Positions 49,196 through 55,860 of a stretch of DNA of 64,000 nucleotides are shown one piece after another. Location of the stretch: the NCBI RefSeq assembly GCF_000143965.1, contig NC_014365.1:3127501-3191500 (forward strand), read 5' to 3'. Within the stretch, counting starts at the first letter, position 1; every line of letters starts with the position of its first letter. The notes beneath the pieces were generated by a model that made no database searches, had not been told where the DNA came from, and saw only the letters and a program-made list of their open reading frames with translations. The stretch comes from Desulfarculus baarsii DSM 2075. GTDB taxonomy: Bacteria > Desulfobacterota > Desulfarculia > Desulfarculales > Desulfarculaceae. Made by a program: the position numbers and the translations under genes.

Positions 49196-49423
49196 TGCCA
49201 TAATGAGAGTGCTGCACGGGGGCGTCCTGCCCCGTGCAGCATCGGCTTGGCAAAAGCGCGGTTTTGCCAAGCCTCACAAATCGCTCGCCTAATCAGGCTC
49301 GCGATTTGGCGCGCCGTCCATGGCGCGCTTCGGCCGCCGCACGGTGAAATTCATGTTTCACAGGTTACCATCTGTTTTTACAACATTTGTTATGTTTCAC
49401 CGTGCAGCAGCCTCATAATGCCA
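49196..49423. repeat. Highly structured repeat, MITE-like, with terminal inverted repeats
   Basis: A 228-base segment bounded by imperfect 25-base terminal inverted repeats (left GTGCCATAATGAGAGTGCTG, right complement GTGGCATTATGAGGCTGCTG, both followed by CACGG; 21 of 25 match). Inside are five nested or successive perfect hairpins: GCTGCACGGGG/CCCCGTGCAGC (49211-49240), GGCTTGGCAAAA/TTTTGCCAAGCC (49244-49273), AAATCGC..GCCT/AGGC..GCGATTT (49278-49307), GCGCGCC/GGCGCGC (49309-49328) and CACGGTGAAA/TTTCACCGTG (49340-49404). No protein is encoded. A non-autonomous element or a structured RNA are the main options. Confidence 0.6.
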
Positions 49424-49507
49424 CAGTCAACTCACGGAGGCCCGCTCCCATGAACCGACGCCCAACACGGCCCGCCGCGCGCCAGGCCGCCAACGCCGAG
49501 GCCCATC

Positions 49508-51778
49508 GTGGCCGTTGAGCTGGCCCGCTGGTGGCTGGCCACGACGGCCATGACCCTGGCCGCCTGGCCGTTGTGCCACGCCCTGCTGGGCCGTCTGGAC
49601 GATCGCGGCTGGTCTCTGGCCAGGGTCTTTGGCCCATGGCTGGTCGGACTCGCTCACTGGCTGGCCTGGGCCTACGGCCCGTGGCCCAGTGGATGGGCGC
49701 TGGCCTGGGGCGCGTTGGCGTTGGTGGCCGTTGGCGGCTGGGCGTGGGTCGGCTGGGCCGGCGTGAACCGGGCCTTTGGCTGGCTGGCGCGCCGGTGGCG
49801 CTTGGCCCTGGGCCTGGAGGCGCTGTATCTGGCGGGCTTTCTGGCCTGGGCCTGGTTGCGCTCGCTGAACCCGGCGGCCAATCACACCGAACAACCCATG
49901 GACATGATGCACTTGCAGGCCCTGTGGGGCGGCGGCGGCTACCCGGCTCAAGACGCCTGGTTGGCCGGCCGGGCCATTGGCTATTATTATTTCGGTCACT
50001 GGCAGATGAGCCACGCCGCCCACCTGGCCGGCCTTTGGCCCTGGACGGCCTACAACCTGGGCCAGGCCGGATGTTTCGCCGCCTGCCTTTGCGGGGCCTT
50101 TGGCCTGGCCCGCGCCGGGGCCTTGGCCGCCCGCTCGGGGCCGGAGCGGGCGCTCGTGGCCGGCGTGCTGGCCGCGCTGGCCACATGCTTAAGCGCCAAC
50201 ATCAAAGGCGCGCTGATGGCCCTTGGCGCATGGCCCGCCGGTGATGGCGGCTGGTGGTGGTTTCAGGCCACACGGGTCATCGAGGACGCCCTGGCCGGTG
50301 GCCGCCGGGCCTGGCTGATCGACGAATTTCCCTTTTTCAGCTTTTATCTGGGCGACAATCACGCCCATGTGCTGGCCCTGCCGCTGGCCTTGTTGACGCT
50401 GGCCCTGACCTTGAACGCCTTGTCCGCGCCGCGCGGGCGCGTCGTGACCGACGGCCTGGCCGCCGCCTGGCGGGCCTGCGCCGCCACGCTCTCGCCCCTG
50501 GCCGGCGGCTGGTTTTTGGCCCTGGCCGCGCCGGGGTCGTTGCTGGCGGCCAACACCTGGGACTGCGCGGGGCTGTGGCCGTTGTTGGTCCTGGCCGTGG
50601 CCGCCGCCTCGCCCGGCGGCCTGGCCCGGCGAGCGCGGCAAGCGGCCCTGGCCGGCGGGGGGCTGATCGTCGTCGCGGCGCTGGTCCATCTGCCCTATTT
50701 GGTCACGGCCCAGAGCCAGGGCCTGGGTTTGGCGGCCAACGCCATGGCCTTCAGCGGGGCCGGGCCTTTGCTGGCGGCGCTGGGACCGCCCCTGGCCGCC
50801 GGCCTGGCGGCGCTGGCCGTGGCCTGGGCCTGGCTGCGACCGCGCGCCGCTCATCTGATCGTGGGGCTGGCCTTGGCCGTGGGCGCGCCGCTGGCGGTGC
50901 TGCTCGGCGGGGCCGTGGACGCGGGCCATTGGCCGGGCGCGCCATGGGGACTTTTGCTGATCGGCCCGTTGCTGGCCGTGGCGGCGGCTTTGGCCTGGCG
51001 CTGGCTGAGCGCCGCCCAAGAGCTGGACCTGCCGCCGGGCCTGGGCTTGTGCCTGTTGATGGCGCTGCTGGGCCTGGCCCTGGCCCTGGCCCCCGAGATC
51101 GTGGTCGTCCGCGACGCCTTTGCCAGCCGCATGAACACGGCCTTCAAGTTTCATTATCAGGCCTGGCTGCTGCTGGCCCTGGCCGGGGCCATCGCCGTGG
51201 CCACGGCCCAGAACCGGCTGGCCGTGATCGCCGCCGGCGTCTGGGCGGCGCTGGCGCTCTTGGGCCTGGCCTATCCGGCCAAGCTCGTTGGCCACGACTT
51301 GGCCCTGGCCCCGCCGCCCCAGGCCCGCACCCTCGACGCCGCCCATTGGCTGAGCGTGGCCGACCCCGACGCCTTGGCGGTCATCGGCTGGCTGCGCGAA
51401 AACTCCGCCCCCGGCGACGTGGTGGCCCAGGCCCCGGGCCGGGTCTATCAGGCCTTGGACAACGCCGTGAGCACCTTTGGCGGCCGGGCCGCGCCGCTGG
51501 GCTGGGTCGGCCATCAACATCAATGGCGGGGCGGCGACCCGCTGATCGCCCGGCGCGAGGCCCTCTTGCACGCCCTCTACGCCGCCGCCGACCAGGCCGC
51601 GTTTGGCCGGACCATGGACGCGCTGGGCGCGCGCTTTGTTCTGGTCGGCCCCCGCGAGCGCCAGGTTTACGGCCTGGGCGCTGGCGACGGCGCGCCGGGC
51701 CGCTGGGGCAAGCTCGTTTTCCAGGCCGGGCGCGCGCGTCTCCACGCCTGGCCCGTGACCGCCGAGGAGGGCCCATGA
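49508..51778 (+). CDS. DUF2298 (Chlor_Arch_YYY) polytopic membrane protein
   Basis: 756 residues, GTG start, with about 15-18 hydrophobic helices. The hallmark Y-Y-Y-x-G motif is present (A-I-G-Y-Y-Y-F-G-H), as are N-H-T-E-Q-P-M-D and F-P-F-F-S-F-Y-L-G-D-N-H-A-H-V-L-A-L-P, which are conserved in the family. The family is known mainly from Archaea, Chloroflexi and a few others and is linked by co-occurrence to TIGR03663. A GT-C-type glycosyltransferase or related membrane enzyme is the most plausible role (inference). It overlaps the next gene by four bases (ATGA). Confidence 0.85.
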   Translation: MAVELARWWLATTAMTLAAWPLCHALLGRLDDRGWSLARVFGPWLVGLAHWLAWAYGPWPSGWALAWGALALVAVGGWAWVGWAGVNRAFGWLARRWRLALGLEALYLAGFLAWAWLRSLNPAANHTEQPMDMMHLQALWGGGGYPAQDAWLAGRAIGYYYFGHWQMSHAAHLAGLWPWTAYNLGQAGCFAACLCGAFGLARAGALAARSGPERALVAGVLAALATCLSANIKGALMALGAWPAGDGGWWWFQATRVIEDALAGGRRAWLIDEFPFFSFYLGDNHAHVLALPLALLTLALTLNALSAPRGRVVTDGLAAAWRACAATLSPLAGGWFLALAAPGSLLAANTWDCAGLWPLLVLAVAAASPGGLARRARQAALAGGGLIVVAALVHLPYLVTAQSQGLGLAANAMAFSGAGPLLAALGPPLAAGLAALAVAWAWLRPRAAHLIVGLALAVGAPLAVLLGGAVDAGHWPGAPWGLLLIGPLLAVAAALAWRWLSAAQELDLPPGLGLCLLMALLGLALALAPEIVVVRDAFASRMNTAFKFHYQAWLLLALAGAIAVATAQNRLAVIAAGVWAALALLGLAYPAKLVGHDLALAPPPQARTLDAAHWLSVADPDALAVIGWLRENSAPGDVVAQAPGRVYQALDNAVSTFGGRAAPLGWVGHQHQWRGGDPLIARREALLHALYAAADQAAFGRTMDALGARFVLVGPRERQVYGLGAGDGAPGRWGKLVFQAGRARLHAWPVTAEEGP

Positions 51779-53883
51779 TCAAACTCCGCAAAGGGGCCAC
51801 GGCCCTGGCCGCCGCCTGGAGCGCGCTGCTGGCCGGCGCGGCGCTGGCGCGCCTGTGGGAACTGGGCGCGCGGGCCATGAGCCACGACGAGAGCCTGCAC
51901 GCCTATTACAGCCATATCTTGGCCCAGAGCGGCGCGCATCACCACGACCCGATGATGCACGGCCCGCTGTTGTTCCAGCTTGGCGCGGCGCTGATGGGCG
52001 CCTTTGGCCCCAGCGACTTTGTCGCCCGGCTGGGCTTCGCCCTGTTGGGCGTGGGCCTGGCGGCCTCGCCGCTCTTGCTGCGGCGCTGGCTGGGCGACTG
52101 GGGCGCGTTCTGGGCCGGGGCGCTGATCGCCTTTAGCCCCAGCCTGCTTTTTTACAGCCGCTACATGCGTAACGACGTGCTTTTCGGCCTGTTGTGCATG
52201 TTCTGGCTGTGGGCGGCGCTGGGTTTCTTGCGCACGGGCCGGGCCAAATGGCTTTGGCCCAACGCCGTGGCCATGGCCCTGTGCTTCGCCTGCAAGGAGA
52301 CCGTGTTTATTTTCGGCGTGTTTCTTGGTGGCTATCTGCTTGTCGCAGGTCTGTTGCGCGCCCGCCGCGCCGGCCTTTCACCGCGCCAGGAGCCCGCAGC
52401 CCAGTTGGCCTGGCTGACGCTGTGCATGGCCCTGCCTTTTGCCGCGCCGCTGGTTCACCTGGCCCTGGGTTGGAGCGTGCTGGACTACGCCTCGCAAACG
52501 GCCGTGTGGCGGGCGGTCATCGTGGCGGGCGCCCTGGGCTTCGTGGCCGCCGGCCTGGCCTGGCTGTGGCTGGGCGATCACGCCTGGTGGGGCGGTGAGC
52601 CGCCCGAGTTGGATTTTTACGATTTTCTGGGCCCGGCCAGCCTGATGTGGACCATCGATCTGCTGCTTTTTGGCAACTGGGGTCGCAACCTGGGTGGCGG
52701 CCTGGCCAGCGGTTTGGTGGGCAGCGGCGGCTATTGGCTGGCCCAGCACGAGGTGGCGCGCGGCGGTCAGCCGTGGTTTTACTACCCAATGCTGCTGGCC
52801 GTCTACGAGTTCGCGCCGCTGATTTTGGCCGTCTGCGCGGCCGTGGCCCTGGCTCGGCGGGCGCGCTCACCCCTGCGCCGCCAAAGGCCGCGCCCGGCCC
52901 AACCGTTGGATATGCCGATCTTTTGCCTGGCCTGGGCCCTGTTTGGCCTGGTGGCCTATTCGCTGGCCGGCGAAAAGATGCCCTGGCTGTTGGCGCACAT
53001 GGCCCTGCCCCTATGCCTGTTGGGCGGCTGGTGGCTGGGCCGCTTCGTCCAGCGCCTCGCCCCGCTCAAGGCCGACGCGCCGTTGATCGTGGCCGGCTGG
53101 GCGCTGCCGTTGTTGCTGGGCGTGTTGGTGATGATTCCGCCCTTTGCCGGCCGGGGCCTTGGCGAACTGGCCCACACCACCCACTGGCTGGGCGCGTTGG
53201 CGGCGGCTCTGCTTTTGGTCGGGCTGGCCCTGTGGCGGCGGCCCAAGATCGGCTGGCGGCGTTGGGCCGGCCTGCTGGCCCTGGGCGCGCTGGCCCTGGT
53301 TGTTTCGCTAAACGCCCGCGCGGCTTGGCTGGCCTGCTTTGTCCATCACGAACAGGCCGTGGAGCTTTTGGTCTACGCCCACGCCTCGCCCCAGCTCAAG
53401 CCGGCCCTGGCCCGGGCCGTGGCGGCCAGTCAAGCCACTGGCCGGCCCATGGCCCACGATCAGCAAACGTCCTGGCCCATGGCCTGGTATCTGGGCCAAC
53501 ACGCGGGCAGCTTCATTTTCAACGACCCCGACGACCCGCGCCAGAGCCAGGCCTCGGCCCTGTTCGTTGGCGAGGATATGGCCCCGGAGGCGCTCCAGCG
53601 CCTGGCCGGCCGCGCCCAGACGATCAACATCATCAGGCTGTGGTGGCCGCCCCAGGATTATCAGGGCCTTGGCTGGCGCGAGTTGGCTGACCGGCTGGCC
53701 CGGCCAGGGTTTTGGCGCGATATGGCCGCCTATTGGTGGGCGCGCGACTTGCCCGGCGGCCGACCAGAGCCCTGGCCCCTGCGCTCGGAGATGCTGGTCA
53801 TCTTGCCCGAGCCAGCCGCAGGCGCAGCCGCCACAGCTCCAGCGCCGCCGCCCAGCACAGACGCAACAATCGCCGACCAATGA
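51775..53883 (+). CDS. TIGR03663/Agl23-type membrane protein (GT-C, PMT-like)
   Basis: 702 residues from ATG 51775. N-terminal helix and an arginine, then the invariant family signatures S-H-D-E-S-L-H-A-Y-Y-S-H (DE dipeptide) and M-M-H-G-P-L-L-F (HGP tripeptide), and Y-S-R-Y-M-R-N-D-V-L-F-G. It shares the dolichyl-phosphate-mannose mannosyltransferase fold, so a lipid-linked sugar donor is expected. About 12 transmembrane helices; a hydrophilic C-terminal domain of some 180 residues is probably extracytoplasmic. The final 86 bases overlap the convergent glycosyltransferase gene. Confidence 0.85.
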   Translation: MIKLRKGATALAAAWSALLAGAALARLWELGARAMSHDESLHAYYSHILAQSGAHHHDPMMHGPLLFQLGAALMGAFGPSDFVARLGFALLGVGLAASPLLLRRWLGDWGAFWAGALIAFSPSLLFYSRYMRNDVLFGLLCMFWLWAALGFLRTGRAKWLWPNAVAMALCFACKETVFIFGVFLGGYLLVAGLLRARRAGLSPRQEPAAQLAWLTLCMALPFAAPLVHLALGWSVLDYASQTAVWRAVIVAGALGFVAAGLAWLWLGDHAWWGGEPPELDFYDFLGPASLMWTIDLLLFGNWGRNLGGGLASGLVGSGGYWLAQHEVARGGQPWFYYPMLLAVYEFAPLILAVCAAVALARRARSPLRRQRPRPAQPLDMPIFCLAWALFGLVAYSLAGEKMPWLLAHMALPLCLLGGWWLGRFVQRLAPLKADAPLIVAGWALPLLLGVLVMIPPFAGRGLGELAHTTHWLGALAAALLLVGLALWRRPKIGWRRWAGLLALGALALVVSLNARAAWLACFVHHEQAVELLVYAHASPQLKPALARAVAASQATGRPMAHDQQTSWPMAWYLGQHAGSFIFNDPDDPRQSQASALFVGEDMAPEALQRLAGRAQTINIIRLWWPPQDYQGLGWRELADRLARPGFWRDMAAYWWARDLPGGRPEPWPLRSEMLVILPEPAAGAAATAPAPPPSTDATIADQ

Positions 53884-54517
53884 GCCGGCTGGGGCCATCG
53901 CGGCGCGCGCGATGGGCCACCGGCTCCTGCACAACCACCAGGCCCAGGGCGCTGGCCGCCAGCACCAGCCCGGCCGAGGGCGCAAGGGCCTTGGGGCCAA
54001 GCAGCGGCGTCAGGCGCTCCAGGCACGGCCGGCCGATCAGCTTGAACGGCGCGTTGACGTCGGCCAGGCGCGCGCCAAAAAGCAGCCGGCCCAGCAAACG
54101 CAGCGTCCGGCTGATCAGCGCCCGACCCGGCCCTTCCCAGCGGCCCTGACGCACGCCCACCACCATGGCCGCGCCCTGGCGTCTGGCCCACAACCGCCAA
54201 AAATCCTCGGCGTCCTGCTGGCGATCGGCGTCGATGAGCAACACCCACGGCGCCCGCGAGCGGGCCAGGCCGGTCATCAGCGCCGGGCCGTGGCCGGCGT
54301 TGGCCTGGTGGATCACCACCAGCCGGGGGGCCAGGCCCTGGGCCAGGCGGTCGAGGATGGGGCCCGTGCCGTCGGTCCCGCCGTCATCGACGACGATCAG
54401 CCGCGAGCCGGGCAACCGGCCCAGAATGGCGCGGTCGACCTCGGCCACGGCGGTCTCGACGCCGGCGGCCTCGTTGAAGGCCGGCATGATCACATCGACT
54501 GTTTCAACAGGGCCCAT
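53798..54517 (-). CDS. Family 2 glycosyltransferase
   Basis: 239 residues from ATG 54517 (GGGA seven bases upstream); GTG 54529 is an alternative. GT2 signatures: V-D-V-I-M-P-A-F-N-E-A-A-G-V, V-V-D-D-G-G-T-D-G-T, N-A-G-H-G-P-A-L, and the DxD-like site L-I-D-A-D-R-Q-Q-D. It resembles polyprenyl-phosphate sugar transferases (DPM1-like), but without a clear C-terminal membrane anchor. It would make a lipid-linked sugar for the GT-C proteins encoded opposite (inference). The gene overlaps the Agl23-type gene tail-to-tail by 86 bases and its upstream neighbour by 28 bases. Confidence 0.88.
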   Translation of the reverse strand: MGPVETVDVIMPAFNEAAGVETAVAEVDRAILGRLPGSRLIVVDDGGTDGTGPILDRLAQGLAPRLVVIHQANAGHGPALMTGLARSRAPWVLLIDADRQQDAEDFWRLWARRQGAAMVVGVRQGRWEGPGRALISRTLRLLGRLLFGARLADVNAPFKLIGRPCLERLTPLLGPKALAPSAGLVLAASALGLVVVQEPVAHRARRDGPSRLIGRRLLRLCWAAALELWRLRLRLARAR

Positions 54518-55860
54518 TGTTCGTCCCACAGCGGCTCGCCGGCCGCGCCCAACAGCCGGCCCACGGCCTCTTGGCCCATGCGCGCGGCGTGATCCATGTT
54601 GCCGATCTCGTAGAGCCAGCCGCCCAGGCGGCCCCGCGAGAACACACCCAGGCCCTCCAGAAAATCGTGCAGCAGGCGCAGGTCATCCTCGCGGCCCAAG
54701 GTCGGCGCGGGATAGGCCACCGGCAACAGCCGCGTGAACACGCTCACCGGCCGCTCGCCCGGTTGGGCCAGGCCGGCGCGGATCAGGCCCTCCCGCACGG
54801 CCTGGACCAAACCAGCCGGCTGGTCCGCGCTCCCGCCCGGCGCGGGAACCTCGGCCAGATAGGCCCGCCAGCGCCTGGCGTCGGCCCCCGGCAGATTGGC
54901 CGGGCCATGGGCGGCCATGTTGGTCAGGCGGCTGAAGATGAACTCGGGCTCCGGGAAATACATCCAGGCCGCCGCCTCGGCCGGCATGGGGCCGGCCAGG
55001 CCCAGGCCCACCAGCCACATGGCGTTGTGCTTCAGGCGCGCGGCCGCGGCCAGGGCCCGGGCCGGCGGCGCGGGCCGCAGCATGGCCAGCAGGCGCGGCA
55101 GGGGCATGGTCGAGATCAGGCCGTCCCAGGCCAGGCGCTGGCCGTCGGCCAGGTGGATCGTCCGCGCCCCGGCGTCGATGGCCTCCACCGCCGCCTTCAA
55201 GCGCAGGCCATCGCCCAGGGCCCGGGCCATGGCCACGAAGGGCCGCCCCGCGCCGCCCTGGGCCGGATAAAAATAATGGTTGTTGGGCCCCCAATCGGCC
55301 CGACCATCGGCCGGGGCCACCCGCCGGTCCACCCAAAGGCTGCTCATGCCCTCCAGGGGGGTTTGCCACAGCTTGGCGTTGAACGGCCAGAAAAAGGCCT
55401 CGGCCAGGGGCCGGCCGTAGACGGCAGCGCACCAGGCGGCGAAGCTCTGGCCCGGCGTCGCGCCCGGCGCTTGAGCCAGGCCCTGGGCCAGGGGCGCGGC
55501 CAGCGCGGGCGGCAGCGTTTGAAAGTGGCTCTGGAAGGGGAAATCCACCCAGTGGCCGCTATAAAAAACCTTGGCCCGCCGCCGGCGCTCCACCATTGTC
55601 GCCCGGCCAGGGCCCGACAGCAACGCCATGAACCCCGGCCAGGACGAGAAAAACACGTGGCCGCCCATGTCCCAGACAAAACCGCGTTCGTCGCGCAACG
55701 AGCCACTCAGGCCGCCGACGCGCGCGGAGGCCTCCAGCACCAGCCAATCGGCCTGGCTCTGCCCGGCCAGGGCCAAACCAGCGGCCAAACCGGTCGGCCC
55801 GGCCCCGATGACCACGATGCGCGGGCGTTTTGGTTGCCGGCTGGCGTAAGGGCGGTTCAT
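54490..55860 (-). CDS. FAD-dependent UDP-galactopyranose mutase-like/amine oxidase-fold protein
   Basis: 456 residues. Dinucleotide site I-V-V-I-G-A-G-P-T-G-L-A-A-G (about 15-28), the second FAD motif E-A-S-A-R-V-G-G-L-S-G-S, and the F-N-A-K-L-W-Q-T-P-L-E-G-M-S segment typical of UGM-like sugar mutases and related protoporphyrinogen-oxidase-fold proteins. In such operons it acts on a nucleotide- or lipid-linked sugar; the substrate cannot be read. It precedes the family 2 glycosyltransferase gene, 28 bases overlapping. The divergent region to argJ (258 bases) holds no gene. Confidence 0.85.
   Translation of the reverse strand: MNRPYASRQPKRPRIVVIGAGPTGLAAGLALAGQSQADWLVLEASARVGGLSGSLRDERGFVWDMGGHVFFSSWPGFMALLSGPGRATMVERRRRAKVFYSGHWVDFPFQSHFQTLPPALAAPLAQGLAQAPGATPGQSFAAWCAAVYGRPLAEAFFWPFNAKLWQTPLEGMSSLWVDRRVAPADGRADWGPNNHYFYPAQGGAGRPFVAMARALGDGLRLKAAVEAIDAGARTIHLADGQRLAWDGLISTMPLPRLLAMLRPAPPARALAAAARLKHNAMWLVGLGLAGPMPAEAAAWMYFPEPEFIFSRLTNMAAHGPANLPGADARRWRAYLAEVPAPGGSADQPAGLVQAVREGLIRAGLAQPGERPVSVFTRLLPVAYPAPTLGREDDLRLLHDFLEGLGVFSRGRLGGWLYEIGNMDHAARMGQEAVGRLLGAAGEPLWDEQWALLKQSM

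Follow-up and report, generated by a model that had tools for sequence, protein, structure and literature searches.

A candidate extracytoplasmic glycosylation cassette of Desulfarculus baarsii combining DUF2298 and Agl23-type membrane proteins with a UDP-galactopyranose mutase homologue

Four adjoining genes at positions 49508-55860 of the analyzed window, a stretch of 64,000 nucleotides from the genome of the sulfate-reducing bacterium Desulfarculus baarsii DSM 2075, probably serve extracytoplasmic glycosylation with a lipid-linked donor, which supports the role in surface or lipid glycosylation suggested in a preliminary description. New here is the sequence-based assignment of the flavoprotein as a eukaryotic-type UDP-galactopyranose mutase (UGM), which points to furanose donors. 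We lean towards a cassette that resembles three-component glycosylation systems of the Gtr, pentofuranose, and DPA/Emb types and uses a UGM-derived donor, a polyprenyl-phosphate-furanose whose sugar would probably be galactofuranose (Galf).

The four genes and their products

The locus comprises the following genes:

49508..51778, plus strand: DUF2298 (Chlor_Arch_YYY) membrane protein, 756 aa, GTG start (PF10060, TIGR03662)
51775..53883, plus strand: TIGR03663 (Agl23-type) membrane protein, 702 aa (TIGR03663, PMT_2)
53798..54529, minus strand: GT2 glycosyltransferase, 243 aa (PF00535), predicted polyprenyl-phosphate-sugar synthase of the ArnC/DPMS type
54490..55860, minus strand: flavoprotein, 456 aa, homologue of eukaryotic-type UGM (T. 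cruzi and A. fumigatus UGM)

The DUF2298 and Agl23 genes overlap in the sequence ATGA, while the GT2 gene overlaps by 40 bp with the 3' end of the flavoprotein gene and, on the opposite strand, covers the last 86 bp of the Agl23 gene. The preliminary description was correct in its outer coordinates and in the arrangement of a translationally coupled DUF2298 and Agl23 pair facing a GT2 gene and a flavoprotein gene. Since the two pairs are convergent, co-transcription is not implied at this locus.

The family assignments of both membrane proteins in the preliminary description were upheld by profile searches. The DUF2298 protein exceeds the curated cut-offs of PF10060 (376.6 bits; cut-off 27.8) and TIGR03662 (342 bits; cut-off 300.25) and keeps the YYY-x-G motif as Y159-Y160-Y161-F-G163, in which the three tyrosines and the glycine are invariant among 14 relatives. 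Further invariant residues in the 14 sequences are E128, a candidate for the acidic catalytic residue of the first extracytoplasmic loop that is positioned after helix 97-120, D149, E273, D283, H285, and H287. In the AlphaFold model (pLDDT 71, pTM 0.79), three additional N-terminal helices precede a GT-C-like core and a soluble C-terminal domain, and the PDB matches at a probability of at least 0.98 are exclusively GT-C enzymes (AglB, AftA, DPY19, STT3). Judged by this model, the protein is predicted to be a GT-C glycosyltransferase. In the literature searched, two full-text matches to the name DUF2298 assign it no function, and nothing on Chlor_Arch_YYY was found.

AglB is the best structural match of the DUF2298 model and, together with the family name Agl23 and the archaeal precedent, it might suggest that the cassette is part of a protein N-glycosylation pathway like the archaeal Agl proteins; the preliminary description mentioned Agl23 in connection with flippase activity in N-glycosylation. 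However, the DUF2298 protein resembles AglB at the fold level only, and a search of the complete genome for an STT3/PglB/AglB homologue yielded no PF02516 match, although the same search matched four archaeal controls. The link to N-glycosylation is thus unsupported, and this highly improbable reading was dropped for lack of an oligosaccharyltransferase in the genome.

The Agl23-type protein scores 219.1 bits against TIGR03663 (curated cut-off 126.25; 220.1 bits in the whole-genome search) and 33.8 bits against PMT_2. It carries the signatures HDE at residues 37-39 and HGP at residues 62-64 and thereby keeps the GT-C EL1 motif (HDE ... DPMMHGP), and the HDE signature would fit the acidic catalytic residue of the first extracytoplasmic loop of GT-C enzymes. 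The structural model is poor (pLDDT 57.6), with ArnT and PMT as top PDB matches and GT-C enzymes alone among its confident ones. Because the catalytic-loop motif is kept and this low-confidence model matches ArnT and PMT, flippase activity is considered as one of two roles, and the protein is predicted to be a GT-C transferase and/or a flippase for a polyprenyl-phosphate-sugar.

In a strict three-component system of synthase, flippase, and GT-C enzyme, Agl23 would be solely a flippase and DUF2298 the sole transferase. This possible but rather unlikely division of labor has a precedent in Haloarcula hispanica Agl23 (HhAgl23), which is reported, in purified form, to translocate Man5GlcNAc2-PP-dolichol in liposomes and to rescue a yeast rft1 deletion, flippase activity being reported for this archaeal protein only (PMC11182771). 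No further flippase-like gene is present in the cassette, in contrast to several loci of Chloroflexota, where PF03706 flippase-like genes occur separately. On the other side stand the retained EL1 motif, the ArnT and PMT matches, albeit of a poor model, and DUF2298 proteins fused to a PMT_2 GT-C module, which suggest paired transferase modules that work jointly.

The GT2 protein matches PF00535 (67.3 bits), and its nearest solved structures are ArnC (E 8e-14) and DPM synthase (E 2e-5). It contains the motifs DDGGTDGT at 48, DAD at 100, and DVNAPFK at 157, and scores 40 bits against the ArnC model, below the cut-off of 529. Its sequence suggests a polyprenyl-phosphate-sugar synthase of the ArnC/DPMS type. 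In the loci examined, its best relatives are situated beside DUF2298 or UGM (154, 118, 113, and 95 bits), compared with 62 bits for the best other GT2 of its own genome.

The flavoprotein and the sugar donor

The flavoprotein has the FAD motif and aligns over residues 12-442 with T. cruzi UGM (4dsg; 215.6 bits, E 1e-62) and scores 193 bits against A. fumigatus UGM (AfUGM) compared with 21.6 bits against the M. tuberculosis enzyme; the bacterial GLF domain PF03275 found no match in it. Fifteen of the 18 AfUGM active-site positions checked are kept, including the equivalents of R182, R327, Y419, R447, Y453, and N457, and three are altered (Y104F, Y334H, Q458M). As a result of Y334H and Q458M, the substrate may differ from that of AfUGM. 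Matches to the PRK07208 NCBIfam models (NF005547 and others) reach 139.9 bits, under the cut-off of 380, and the protoporphyrinogen or amine oxidase role suggested by Pfam was rejected after PDB comparison. The flavoprotein superfamily also includes HpnE and phytoene desaturases, and PRK07233 members adjoining Chloroflexota Agl23 genes match HpnE weakly, so that a desaturation or reduction of the isoprenoid carrier, rather than a reaction on the sugar, was considered. This option appears improbable, as the window protein aligns with UGMs over its full length and keeps the sugar-nucleotide contacts, and a bona fide GLF occupies the same position in another genome (G332).

GT2 and mutase genes recur beside DUF2298 and Agl23 in other loci. 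Genome G290 (locus L038) holds UGM, GT2, DUF2298, a GT-C-DUF2298 fusion, and Agl23 in a single same-strand operon, which adjoins an operon of DprE1-, DprE2-, and DPPR-synthase-like (UbiA) genes for the pathway to polyprenyl-phosphate-arabinofuranose, the arabinofuranose donor. G332 (locus L039) combines a bacterial-type GLF (254 bits) with GT2 and two DUF2298 genes, indicating that two kinds of UGM were recruited next to the same set of GT2 and DUF2298 genes. In all three genomes (D. baarsii, G290, and G332), the UGM and GT2 genes overlap. The tree that unites the window UGM with that of G290 has long branches and was left out of the evidence. UGM is not a universal partner, being missing from G056 (locus L037, GT2 convergent with Agl23), from genus g14, and, genome-wide, from the Caldilineales, the closest Chloroflexota relatives, which nevertheless have DUF2298 and Agl23. 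Other Chloroflexota carry a PRK07233 flavoprotein in place of UGM. Consequently, a furanose donor is not general for the DUF2298 and Agl23 families.

The Caldilineales also favor a lipid-linked extracytoplasmic system whose donor carries glucose, galactose, or mannose in pyranose form, and in which UGM feeds UDP-Galf elsewhere or uses another NDP-sugar and its adjacency to GT2 reflects operon history only; in addition, UGM relatives elsewhere in the phylum belong to ordinary polysaccharide loci without DUF2298. We regard such a donor as unlikely, given that two UGM types adjoin GT2 and DUF2298 in separate families (the window genome and G290 versus G332), that the UGM and GT2 genes overlap throughout these three genomes, and that the active site of the window UGM is kept.

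A furanose donor is somewhat preferred, and its specific identity as Galf is proposed more tentatively. In the pathway that we infer, the flavoprotein would turn UDP-galactopyranose or a similar compound into its furanose form, which GT2 would transfer to polyprenyl phosphate at the cytoplasmic face. The lipid-linked sugar would then pass the membrane, possibly via Agl23, and DUF2298, probably together with Agl23, would act as a GT-C enzyme that moves it to an acceptor beyond the inner membrane. Candidate acceptors are LPS, another glycolipid or polysaccharide, and protein.

To our knowledge, the Galf transferases known so far take UDP-Galf directly in the cytoplasm, which counts against polyprenyl-phosphate-Galf, and no paper on this compound was found in the literature searched. 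If it were the donor, Galf would enter glycans by a route absent from that literature. More speculatively, DUF2298 might represent a new GT-C galactofuranosyltransferase family that uses polyprenyl-phosphate-Galf supplied by the UGM and GT2 pair. This would be a counterpart, for hexofuranoses, of the DPA pathway of mycobacteria and the pentofuranose pathways of Gram-negative bacteria, and the Chloroflexota PRK07233 flavoproteins would then be mutase-like enzymes in the same position. DUF2298 comprises hundreds of Chloroflexota and archaeal proteins, and the window gives the family a concrete, testable job. The window and two independent loci connect the family with recognizable donor enzymes, which makes its activity accessible to assays with purified components.

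Distribution of the two membrane protein families

As had been supposed, both of these little-studied families, which are characteristic of Chloroflexota and archaea, are rare in the phylum Desulfobacterota: DUF2298 occurs in 7/395 genomes and TIGR03663 in 4/395. The proposed co-occurrence was likewise observed, all four genomes with an above-cut-off TIGR03663 match being DUF2298-positive (p = 3.5e-8; by family 1e-6). In Chloroflexota, the families are common (198/301), and the suspected affinity to this phylum is reflected in trees of bacterial sequences, in which both window proteins group with Caldilineales and one other Desulfobacterota genus. A plasmid origin was rejected, as no DUF2298 match was found among 72,556 plasmid records. 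Composition does not indicate recent foreign DNA either; with a GC3 of 0.85-0.89, the four genes match their neighbors, so any transfer would be old.

Comparison with known systems

The H. hispanica Agl22/Agl23 pathway ties a TIGR03663 protein to the synthesis and use of dolichyl-phosphate-hexose, but serves archaeal N- and O-glycans with an oligosaccharyltransferase, which was not found in the genome of D. baarsii. The eukaryotic UGMs of T. cruzi and A. fumigatus share full-length homology and most active-site residues with the window protein, which differs from them in being bacterial, in adjoining GT2, and in its three substitutions.

The proposed pathway also has a parallel in mycobacterial DPA synthesis (DPPR synthase, DprE1/DprE2, Emb/Aft arabinosyltransferases), where a polyprenyl-phosphate-furanose donor likewise depends on a flavoenzyme and is used by GT-C transferases. 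AftA ranks high among the structural matches of the DUF2298 model, and G290 carries DprE1/E2/UbiA genes beside its DUF2298 operon. The donor predicted for the window would, however, derive from a UDP-sugar mutase and not from PRPP; DPA synthesis itself was rejected for D. baarsii, as DprE1 is absent.

The three-component systems, GtrABC and the pentofuranose version with GT136, share the scheme of a cytoplasmic lipid-linked monosaccharide, membrane crossing, and GT-C transfer, and the latter provides a published case of GT-C enzymes drawing on polyprenyl-phosphate-furanose donors for the O antigens of Gram-negative bacteria (PMC11127046). Its furanose sugars correspond to the donor proposed here, although UGM and GT2 would provide a hexofuranose, DUF2298 would replace GT136 or Gtr as the transferase, and Agl23 would stand in for GtrA or MATE as the candidate flippase. 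By homology, the window contains the GT2 and GT-C parts of such a system, with Agl23 as its candidate flippase.

Gene organization and the predicted cytoplasmic enzymes

The window spans positions 3,127,501-3,191,500 of its source genome, which is complete as a single contig of 3,655,731 bases, and the four genes of the proposed cassette are arranged as follows:

49508-51778, + strand: DUF2298 gene, GTG start; PF10060 and TIGR03662 above curated cut-offs
51775-53883, + strand: Agl23 gene; TIGR03663 above curated cut-off
55860-54490, - strand: flavoprotein gene, upstream of the GT2 gene on the same strand
54529-53798, - strand: GT2 gene, following the flavoprotein gene

The DUF2298 and Agl23 genes overlap by ATGA. 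The GT2 gene starts 40 bp within the flavoprotein gene and overlaps Agl23, on the opposite strand, by 86 bp at the 3' terminus of the latter. Profile scores and coordinates confirm the gene pair and facing GT2 and flavoprotein genes of the preliminary description, including the family identities. Just upstream of the DUF2298 gene lies a MITE- or REP-like element (49204-49415; about 211 bp) that contains multiple hairpins and has inverted-repeat ends. It occurs once in the window; genome-wide, some 22 copies are nearly full-length, at 92-99% identity, and fragments are also dispersed. A 22-codon ORF with a good Shine-Dalgarno sequence (ACGGAGG; 49450-49518) overlaps the GTG start and could possibly serve as a leader peptide or in translational coupling to DUF2298.

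Pfam assigns the flavoprotein to the amine oxidases. In a comparison against all solved structures, its residues 12-442 align with eukaryotic-type UDP-galactopyranose mutases (UGMs), scoring 215.6 bits with the T. cruzi enzyme and 193 bits with that of A. fumigatus; the M. tuberculosis enzyme scores just 21.6. At 15 of 18 alignment-mapped positions, which we take to be those of the A. fumigatus active site, the flavoprotein has the same residue, among them the counterparts of R182, R327, Y419, R447, Y453, and N457; the differences are Y104F, Y334H, and Q458M. Eukaryotic-type UGM homologues 34-39% identical to that of the window were found in about 20 of 395 Desulfobacterota genomes (loci L053-L064, L065-L079), several within glycosyltransferase clusters. 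Among solved structures, the GT2 protein comes closest to ArnC (E 8e-14) and to dolichol-phosphate mannose synthase, enzymes that load a single sugar onto polyprenyl phosphate. Its best relatives in the loci examined are GT2s that adjoin DUF2298 or UGM (L038, 154; L039, 118; L079, 113; L037, 95 bits), and its top paralogue within its own genome scores 62.

Distribution and phylogeny

Profile searches of 395 Desulfobacterota genomes placed DUF2298 over cut-off in seven and TIGR03663 in four, all four among the seven and each from a different family; for this co-occurrence, p = 3.5e-8 when genomes are counted and 1e-6 when families are. The source organism's family is represented by nine further genomes, all of which lack DUF2298. 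The system was therefore rightly called rare in this phylum, and common, vertical inheritance within it is excluded. With the window DUF2298 protein as query, 198 of 301 Chloroflexota genomes were matched.

On whether the pair branches with Chloroflexi or Archaea, trees limited to bacterial sequences place both proteins with Caldilineales Chloroflexota. In the DUF2298 tree (66 rows), the window protein falls in a group (SH-aLRT 100) with Caldilineales and three proteins from a single further genus of Desulfobacterota, apart from the genes of the Desulfobacterota genomes G056, G290, and G332; the Agl23 tree agrees, uniting the window protein with those of another genome of that genus (G078) and of Caldilineales (97/99). 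Transfer, in either direction, would be old: identity to the closest proteins is no more than about 35%, the branch leading to the window protein is long, and the cassette genes have normal GC3.

Neighborhoods in other genomes

The association with GT2 and mutase genes recurs. In G290 (L038), a single operon with all genes on one strand encodes UGM, GT2, DUF2298, a fusion of PMT_2 to DUF2298, and Agl23. In G332 (L039), GT2 and two copies of DUF2298 accompany a GLF of bacterial type (254 bits). On the opposite strand in G290, an adjoining operon (L038:217-3192) encodes a UbiA protein like decaprenyl-phosphate phosphoribosyltransferase and DprE1 and DprE2 homologues, all below NCBIfam equivalog cut-offs (against solved enzymes, DprE1 E 3e-71, synthase E 2e-24); genes like these belong to polyprenyl-P-arabinofuranose synthesis. 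The same set in genome G005 (L168:4719-8014) is followed by two multi-spanning membrane proteins; the DprE1 homologues of G005 and G042 are on other contigs. No DprE1 was found in the complete genome of the window.

In several Chloroflexota, a PRK07233 flavoprotein immediately follows Agl23 (456-494 bits, cut-off 252), and some of these loci also carry PF03706 flippase-like genes. In G056, such a flavoprotein adjoins DUF2298 and, at another site, GT2 is convergent with Agl23. PRK07233 (NF005560), a "hypothetical protein" in NCBIfam, lies directly beside Agl23 or DUF2298 in L036 (5138-6568) and in Chloroflexota loci L126, L128-L130, L132, L133, and L138, at the position held by UGM in other genomes. 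This recurrent placement provides a lead to its function.

Predicted folds and proposed mechanism

The DUF2298 model (14 sequences, pLDDT 71, pTM 0.79) matches AglB, AftA, DPY19, and STT3, each at a probability of at least 0.98, all other listed matches reaching at most 0.2. For Agl23, confidence in the model is low (pLDDT 57.6), yet its leading matches, ArnT and PMTs, are consistent with the protein's PMT_2 profile match. TM-scores are low (0.2-0.5), and the anticipated GT-C fold is therefore supported at fold level only.

In the best-supported reading, UGM and then GT2 would form a cytoplasmic donor branch yielding a polyprenyl-P-sugar, and Agl23 and DUF2298 an outer branch. We infer a furanose donor because UGM is present, two different UGM types occupy the same position, and DprE1/E2 neighbor the operon in G290. 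Counting against this, no UGM was found in the Caldilineales relatives, so specificity for furanoses need not reside in the membrane proteins. By analogy with the Haloarcula hispanica protein (PMC11182771), Agl23 may be a flippase; its GT-C motifs argue that it may be a transferase, and both roles may be true. The glycosylation system originally suggested is partly supported and made more specific; an N-glycosylation route is unlikely because no oligosaccharyltransferase was found in the genome. The proposed cassette would work in a manner like three-component extracytoplasmic glycosylation, a mode for which work on Gram-negative O antigens has demonstrated polyprenyl-P-pentofuranose donors and GT-C enzymes (PMC11127046).
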